Assembly: GCF_014205295.1 (NCBI RefSeq)
Contig: NZ_JACHNF010000001.1
Span: forward strand, 6,324,001-6,388,000
DNA length: 64,000 nucleotides
Direction of reading: 5' to 3'
Origin: Kribbella solani
GTDB lineage: Bacteria; Actinomycetota; Actinomycetes; Propionibacteriales; Kribbellaceae
Shown here one piece after another: positions 40,905-42,231 of the stretch. The position numbers and the translations under genes are program-made. Below the pieces are notes generated by a model, which was not told the DNA's origin, did no database searches, and saw only the letters and a list, made by a program, of their open reading frames with translations. Numbering within the stretch: position 1 is the stretch's first letter; the number at the start of each line of letters is the position of its first letter.

Positions 40905-41345
40905 ATGGGGTCAAGGGGTAGCCGCCGTCGAACCAGGACCACAGTTCTCACCGTCGCCAACGGTCTGGTGATCGTTGTCTGTCTGGGCGTGAGTATCGCC
41001 CTGTTCTCACAGAACGCCTGGATTCTCCGGGCGGCCGCCGGGGGCGCTGTCCTGGTCGCGATCGCTGCCTCGGTGCTGTTCCGGCACCAGCTGCTGGTGG
41101 AGCGGCTGAAGCACTCCGACGAACGCGCGCAGGTCGCGCAGGAGTACTCGCGGATCACCAGCGCGCGGGTGGTCGAGAACGCCGAGTTCGTCGACCTGAT
41201 GCAGCGCCGGCTGGACAAGATCGACCAGCGCCTGGACAAGATCGACGAGGAGGTCGCGACCGTGGTCGCGGCCGGCGACAAACACTCCCAGGCCGAGGCC
41301 CCGACCGTCGTCGACCTCAAACTCCGCGGCCTCGCCGCCTCCTGA
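40905..41345 (+). CDS. small two-helix membrane protein with C-terminal coiled coil
   Basis: A 146-aa protein with a basic N-terminus, two membrane helices (VANGLVIVVCLGVSIALF and ILRAAAGGAVLVAIAASVLF), then a heptad-rich cytoplasmic segment including RRLDKIDQRLDKIDEEVATV with a repeated RLDKID unit. I do not recognise the family. It lies 11 bases after the DUF3180 gene and ends the folate run. Confidence 0.78.
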   Translation: MGSRGSRRRTRTTVLTVANGLVIVVCLGVSIALFSQNAWILRAAAGGAVLVAIAASVLFRHQLLVERLKHSDERAQVAQEYSRITSARVVENAEFVDLMQRRLDKIDQRLDKIDEEVATVVAAGDKHSQAEAPTVVDLKLRGLAAS

Positions 41346-41360
41346 CAGCCCTCCACACGA

Positions 41361-41437
41361 GTGGATATCCACCGTTGTGGTGGGTTCTCCACCCGTATAC
41401 CGGTGGAGAACCCACCACGGCAGTGGATATCCACTGC
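41361..41437. repeat. cluster of palindromes with GTGG-N4/5-CCAC sites
   Basis: GTGGATATCCAC occurs at 41361-41372 and again inside the 18-bp palindrome 41420-41437. Between them perfect 17-bp arms (41377-41393 and 41402-41418) flank CGTATACC. Every part contains GTGG-N4/5-CCAC, giving four copies in 77 bases. It fills the gap before the inositol-monophosphatase-family gene. Confidence 0.85.
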
Positions 41438-41460
41438 TGTGGGGTGGGTAGGTTGGGCCT

Positions 41461-42231
41461 GTGGAACTTGCCGAGTTGTTGAAGGTTGCCGGGGCCGCGG
41501 TCGAGCGGGGGCGGGCGGTGACCGCGTCGCGGGCGCCGGGGGAGCTGACCTCGAAGGGCGACCGGGACATGGCGTCCGAGGTGGACTTCGCGGTCGAGCG
41601 GGAAGTCCGGGCGTTCCTGGAGCGCGAGACGCCGGAGATCGGCGTGCTCGGTGAGGAAGAAGGCGGCGCCACCGACGGGACCCGCTGGGTGCTCGACCCG
41701 GTCGACGGCACGGTGAACTTCATCCACGGCGTACCGCTGTGGGCCATCTCGCTCGGGCTGATCCACGAAGGCCGGGCGGTCGCGGGCGTGATCGACCACC
41801 CCGCGCTGGGTACGACGTACGCAGCCGCCGAAGGCCTCGGCGCGACCTGCAACGGGCGGGCGATCCGGGGCAGCGAGTGCACCGATCTGACCGACGCGCT
41901 GGTGTCGATCGGTGACTACGCGGTCGGGCCGGACGCGGAGCAGGTGAACGCCGAACGGGTCGCGCTGACCGAGCGGCTCTACCCGCGGGTGCAGCGGCTG
42001 CGGATGATCGGTACAGCCGCTACGGCGCTGACGTGGACAGCACACGGGTACTTCGACGCGATGATCCTGTTCTCGAACAAGCCGTGGGACACGATGGCCG
42101 GCGTCGCGATCTGCCGTGAAGCGGGTGTGACCGTGCTGGACCTCGACGGCACCGAGCACGCGCCGGAATCCCGTGGCGTCTTCGCGGTCGCGGAGGGCAT
42201 CCGCGAACCGTTGCAGGAGCTTCTGGGCTGA
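41461..42231 (+). CDS. inositol-monophosphatase-family phosphatase (possible histidinol phosphatase)
   Basis: A 256-aa Mg-dependent phosphatase. It has the metal-site motifs LGEEEGG (Glu), LDPVDGTVNFIHG (Asp, Asp) and SNKPWDTMAGVAICREAG (Asp). Members hydrolyse inositol phosphates, histidinol phosphate, PAP or fructose bisphosphate, and the sequence does not decide between them. The start is a GTG at 41461, directly after the palindrome cluster, which may be its control region. Confidence 0.87.
   Translation: MELAELLKVAGAAVERGRAVTASRAPGELTSKGDRDMASEVDFAVEREVRAFLERETPEIGVLGEEEGGATDGTRWVLDPVDGTVNFIHGVPLWAISLGLIHEGRAVAGVIDHPALGTTYAAAEGLGATCNGRAIRGSECTDLTDALVSIGDYAVGPDAEQVNAERVALTERLYPRVQRLRMIGTAATALTWTAHGYFDAMILFSNKPWDTMAGVAICREAGVTVLDLDGTEHAPESRGVFAVAEGIREPLQELLG

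Follow-up and report, generated by a model that had tools for sequence, protein, structure and literature searches.

What does a dense cluster of palindromes do in front of a metabolic gene in Kribbella solani: does it serve that gene alone, or did it arrive there as part of something larger? The cluster lies between the end of a short upstream gene and the GTG start of an inositol-monophosphatase-family gene, as a sequence-only reading of the locus had correctly placed it, and that reading had taken it for the site of an undescribed DNA-binding protein acting on the phosphatase gene. All coordinates refer to the window, the 64-kb stretch of the genome that was analysed, unless a locus is named.

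Architecture and genomic copies of the palindrome block

A motif scan of the window recovered all four GTGG-N4/5-CCAC sites that had been described within 77 bases (Table 1). The whole window holds five such motifs and shuffled windows give 4.8, so it is the packing of the four sites and not their number that is exceptional. The core palindrome is centred on GTATAC (41395-41400) and has arms of about 21 nt with one mismatch, where 17 bp had been given, and the right-hand palindrome GCAGTGGATATCCACTGC is, as reported, a perfect 18-bp palindrome. Beyond that description, the block as a whole is symmetric, with 45-nt arms (41353-41397 and 41398-41442) that are 87% complementary, and its strand folds into one long hairpin (-37 kcal/mol compared to -15.7 ± 2.4 kcal/mol for shuffles, z -8.8), which bears out the suggested potential to form a cruciform. 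An Rfam search of the block gave no match, ruling out a riboswitch or known RNA, and covariation of the hairpin across element copies was not above that of shuffles, so that compensatory base pairs were dropped as proof of selection on the hairpin. At 41449-41463, TAGGTT is followed 6 bases on by the GTG start, an arrangement that is conserved across Kribbella and resembles a leaderless promoter of the phosphatase gene.

Table 1. Positions of the palindromic element, its parts and neighbouring features, and of insertion sequences found in palindromes of this kind
Feature	Position	Strand	Basis
Whole palindromic element, one of at least about 40 dispersed copies	41353..41442		Inverted repeat and genome copies
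Left outer palindrome GTGGATATCCAC	41361..41372		Motif scan; genome copies
Core palindrome GTGGTGGGTTCTCCACCCGTA/TACCGGTGGAGAACCCACCAC, one mismatch	41377..41418		Symmetry; copy alignment
GTGG-N5-CCAC site, left arm of core	41380..41392		Motif scan
GTGG-N5-CCAC site, right arm of core	41403..41415		Motif scan
Right outer palindrome GCAGTGGATATCCACTGC, containing GTGGATATCCAC at 41423-41434	41420..41437		Motif scan
Upstream gene, short	40905..41345	+	3' end kept in 38/38 Kribbella genomes
Inositol-monophosphatase-family gene (name from the sequence-only reading), GTG start; context, outside the element	41461..42231	+	
TAGGTT, putative -10 box of the phosphatase gene	41449..41454	+	Kept in relatives without the element; function inferred
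IS30-family insertions	L064:3039-4324; L065:1703-3000; L067:1714-2999; L068:1714-2999 and 3034 on; L069:3053-4338; L072:3048-4345		

The sequence-only reading had itself raised the possibility that the block recurs at unrelated loci or is missing in relatives, and recurrence is what we found: BLASTN of the block against its own 7.85-Mb genome placed it at no fewer than about 40 unrelated loci, of which 38 stretches besides the window were read and aligned, copy numbers being lower bounds. A genome count of GTGGATATCCAC, which had been proposed as a check, returned at least 26 occurrences compared to 0 for the reversed control. The aligned copies have a single architecture of three abutting palindromes, about 90 bp in total and extragenic, in which the outer palindrome is either GTGGATATCCAC flanked by CACGAG/CTCGTG shoulders or a shorter end, GGGTTCTCCAC, the core palindrome is GTGGGTTCTCCACCGGTA/TACCGGTGGAGAACCCAC, and a second outer palindrome stands on the far side. 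The core carries a conserved TTCTCC/GGAGAA in the block's own family and different letters in other palindrome families. By gene context, as given by a rough gene caller, 20 of the 38 copies are tandem, 12 convergent and 6 divergent, and they lie mostly just 3' of stop codons. Six extra GTGGAGAACCC sites in unrelated sequence ruled out that the half-sites are the ends of an autonomous transposon.

All 38 Kribbella genomes have retained the 3' end of the gene to the left of the block, and only in the block's genome does BLAST find the element next to it; where the orthologous junctions could be read, the end of the upstream gene leads directly into the phosphatase promoter or into some other sequence. 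In K. rubisoli (L083:2860-2985), an element of another subfamily lies in front of the same phosphatase gene. Related elements were detected in 16/38 Kribbella genomes, with up to dozens of matches. Comparison of G023 with G017, G029 and G025 yielded one near-clean empty site, for a K. soli copy (CTCTGA joined to CCGGGG in G017 compared to CTCTGA-element-CCGAGG in G023), and at this sole case the target duplication reads GACC or AC; the flanks in G028 and G009 were too diverged. A search for relatives in phages or viral contigs found none, which ruled out phage or viral spread.

The block is a dispersed element that landed at the phosphatase locus and no private operator, because unrelated copies are so numerous and none was found at the orthologous site. 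A dedicated phosphatase operator for an unknown regulator, as first proposed, would suit the position directly upstream of the gene and the overlap with the expected -35 position, but the dispersed copies and the lack of the element upstream of the same gene in relatives leave it with almost no credibility. Scarcely more probable, in our judgement, is that the copies are structural sequences kept behind genes for transcription termination or mRNA stability: the strong hairpin and the many copies directly behind stop codons speak for it, but no T-run was seen after the hairpin, the element is absent at orthologous gene ends, and the bracketing of one gene family, described below, would be left unexplained.

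A partner gene family bracketed by the element

In several relatives, the element lies immediately upstream of a gene of about 320 aa with an AbiEi_4 winged helix. An element profile run over the loci around AbiEi_4 genes matched in only one subfamily, at most of its loci on both sides, and with this partner protein as the query, members were detected in 36/38 Kribbella genomes. At no fewer than 14 loci, the element stands on both sides of the partner gene (nhmmer E 1e-22 to 1e-2), with the match weakening as partner protein identity drops from 88% to 55%. A sequence-blind comparison of upstream with downstream flanks found matching repeats around 26/30 partner members (0/200 shuffles each) compared to 0/12 control genes (z ≤ 1.5); the four members without matching flanks include L304 (60% identity), the only intact close member in the block's genome. 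The upstream element lies about 50 bp before the aligned start of the partner gene, and a full copy also follows the stop codon. The bracketing test covered Kribbella and three genes of Tsukamurella, a member of another order, where two of the three were bracketed by repeats (z 32 and 43), one of which recurs at ten places in its genome's records and the other at three. Most of the other AbiEi_4 paralogue loci examined were without matching flanking repeats, a few paralogues of about 43-44% identity and one more distant gene having other repeats, and a general link of the element to all AbiEi_4 genes was thereby ruled out. The pairing of the element with the partner gene is well supported. The two occur apart in some genomes, with G033 having the partner gene and no match to the block query, and G032 having element copies without a close partner.

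Several further repeats and motifs were observed around these genes. A second repeat family, GCGGGTTGTTTCACCGCTGGCGGG, brackets two paralogues of about 43% identity (L220 and L223 flanks; also in the L186, L189 and L192 flanks) and recurs near other copies in G023, while at L237 an unrelated repeat of about 83 bp (z 11.8) stands on both sides of a more distant AbiEi_4 gene. A dispersed repeat beginning GTGCACTACCTGTCCAGC (L193 left flank; copies in G017, G025 and G029), with many copies per genome, adjoins some elements. The DnaA-box-like motif TT[A/G/T]TCCACA was present at an almost constant distance, -44 to -61, from the aligned start of 23/30 partner genes (L293-L322) and of 0/12 controls, and may tie partner expression to replication.

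The partner protein appears, from its sequence, to combine an N-terminal AbiEi-type winged helix with a C-terminal PD-(D/E)XK nuclease of the DUF559/Vsr-like kind. The AbiEi_4 profile matched 25/25 members, and the DUF559 profile gave a weak match in 9/25. At the C-terminus lies the motif VDF...VEFDG..KY...REDRLR..G..VVR, with D248, E259-x-D261, K265 and E277-K-x-REDRLR invariant in the alignment of 25 sequences, a pattern that a PD-(D/E)XK nuclease would be expected to show, and PDB 3hrl aligns weakly over the motif (E 0.88); the nuclease assignment rests on this invariant motif together with the weak Pfam and PDB matches. Neighbouring reading frames, read by eye, comprised an ABC-transporter ATPase, NadA-like, glycosyltransferase-like, metallo-beta-lactamase-like (MBL) and Crp-like genes, and no AbiEii (DUF1814) toxin was recognised among them.

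Diverged partners have palindrome families of their own. When seven diverged upstream palindromes were searched jointly in the seven genomes carrying them (49 genome-family combinations), nine combinations were populated among the matches listed, namely the seven expected ones, the L317 family in G026 and the L308 family in G021. The L317-family palindrome in G026 has a copy beside a G026 paralogue, and for the L308-type family in G021 no adjacent partner was seen. The distinct places, each a lower bound and with gene flanks included, numbered at least 41 in G009, 15 and 12 in G026, 10 and 5 in G021, 9 in G032, 7 in G017, 4 in G018 and 2 in G015, the last of which may comprise hardly anything beyond the flanks of the gene itself. 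The G009 family repeats the three-palindrome layout in the 15 stretches read, with other letters, for example TCTGATGGGTTAACCCACCAGA with the core GCAGGGTTGGCCCACCAGA/TTCTGGTGGGCCAACCCTGC. Similarity of the proteins and similarity of the elements were correlated (Mantel r 0.43, 0/999).

Partner loci further indicate that the gene is usually inherited vertically, with an element of its own family on either side. One locus, between MBL and Crp-like genes, holds a partner in 15 species with different palindromes, and in 11 of these species the median partner identity was 61% compared to 75% and 85% for the adjacent reading frames. At another, between nadA and a glycosyltransferase-like gene, K. 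soli (L323) carries the element-gene cassette at the same position but in the opposite orientation to that of four other species (e.g. L325, G022), with endpoints at the elements. The block's genome has an orthologue of the closest partner that is about 78% identical, abuts an ABC-transporter gene and keeps one full element at its 3' end; since it is N-terminally truncated, the copies there are probably no longer mobilised by it.

Mobile palindromes or bound sites

We consider it likely, with reservation, that the block belongs to a family of non-autonomous, extragenic mobile palindromes that spread within the genome by means of the winged-helix nuclease partner. The chemistry of mobilisation (binding, cutting and copying) we infer as follows. 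The partner's winged helix would bind the stacked inverted sites, four per element, much as Rv2827c, a homologue of AbiEi, binds a set of four inverted 23-bp sites within its own promoter (PMC7319586); its nuclease domain would then cut the element, either as a duplex or as an extruded cruciform or hairpin; and repair or replication would place copies at new intergenic positions, for the most part directly after stop codons. The earlier idea of several protein-binding sites holds. The guess that an undescribed protein binds them may also be correct in a modified form, the candidate being the winged-helix protein of AbiEi type, with its nuclease motif, that is paired with the element; the gene-specific regulator does not stand.

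The same pairing could also describe a regulon, in which the AbiEi-type protein acts chiefly as a regulator or nucleoid protein, at its own promoter and genome-wide, and the copies were spread by another process. AbiEi homologues do bind stacked inverted repeats and autoregulate (PMC7319586), the upstream element lies only a short distance before the partner start, and co-divergence of protein and repeat suits a binding pair without mobility. The full copy behind the partner stop codon, the position of dispersed copies mostly at gene 3' ends and not at promoters, and the insertion-like presence and absence at orthologous sites all argue in the other direction, and we regard a regulon as unlikely. 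Less likely still is that the palindromes are MITE- or REP-like repeats moved by an unrelated transposase, with the AbiEi-like gene as a passenger or favoured landing place. Many IS families mobilise short palindromes, and the block's genome holds its roughly 40 copies although the closest partner there is truncated; but each diverged gene copy is bracketed by a separate repeat family that is also dispersed in that genome, no Y1 transposase was found in the seven Kribbella genomes searched, and the elements are the insertion target of the sole IS seen at them, whose ends differ from theirs. This IS30-family element (about 1.3 kb, 412 aa, ends GGCGGGGTCCAGTGGTC) was found in seven insertions at the same palindrome point, TTGNGG/GTTC, with a 3-bp duplication where both ends were readable, and one palindromic element carries a copy in each arm. 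The palindromes serve as a precise target for the IS, whose insertion into them, together with its unrelated ends, ruled it out as their parent.

Relation to known systems and implications

For mobilisation by the winged-helix nuclease partner, the closest known system is that of REP/REPIN palindromes with RAYT (PMC3116915, PMC3733652), where the one kind of partner known for REP palindromes is the RAYT transposase, the CGTC class being without a known partner (PMC3733652). Both systems have short, extragenic, dispersed palindromes in inverted doublets that form hairpins, a partner gene flanked by repeats (here 26/30), partner-specific repeat families and IS elements that target the palindromes, REPs being known IS targets (PMC1525189). 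The Kribbella element differs in being a three-palindrome unit of about 90 bp, and its partner is a winged-helix and PD-(D/E)XK-like protein, not an HUH/Y1 transposase. REP hairpins have a GTAG- or CGTC-type tag at one foot, and the conserved letters in the block's family are TTCTCC/GGAGAA at the core, with others in other families. The RAYT Y1 transposase (PF01797) was absent from the 7 Kribbella genomes searched, with a positive E. coli control, which ruled out RAYT as the partner; the lifestyle of REP/RAYT is matched and the protein is not.

Rv2827c and AbiEi of the type IV toxin-antitoxin system AbiE share with the partner the AbiEi_4 winged helix, and known members bind stacked inverted repeats at their own promoter, the four inverted sites of Rv2827c resembling the four stacked sites of the Kribbella element. 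The Kribbella partner, however, has a C-terminal nuclease motif in place of the antitoxin domain, its sites are dispersed genome-wide, and the toxin gene of AbiE was not recognised among the neighbouring reading frames inspected by eye. DUF559/Vsr-like endonuclease-fold proteins (PDB 3hrl) share the motif, with weak DUF559 and PDB matches, but have no link to dispersed palindromes in the papers searched; in the open-access literature, to which that search extended, none connected AbiEi or DUF559 proteins with dispersed palindromes. MITEs are likewise small, non-autonomous and intergenic with inverted repeats, whereas here no parent DDE transposase with matching ends was seen; at the single near-clean empty site the target duplication may be either GACC or AC.

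We put forward tentatively, at somewhat less than an even chance, that these elements form a class of bacterial mobile palindromes not described before, mobilised by PD-(D/E)XK nucleases that have an AbiEi-type winged helix, and that the REP/RAYT lifestyle was thereby invented a second time, independently of HUH enzymes. If this is true, the class would occur widely in Actinomycetota, nucleases retained by the host would co-evolve each with a palindrome family of its own, and abundant AbiEi/DUF559 proteins now annotated as lone antitoxins would gain a function. A second partner, unrelated in fold, would demonstrate that quite different enzymes can maintain dispersed palindromes, and the many independent protein and repeat pairs would form a natural set for studying specificity. 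Palindrome blocks of this kind should not be taken for gene-specific operators, and the many actinobacterial genes annotated as 'AbiEi family antitoxin' or 'DUF559' would acquire a testable role.
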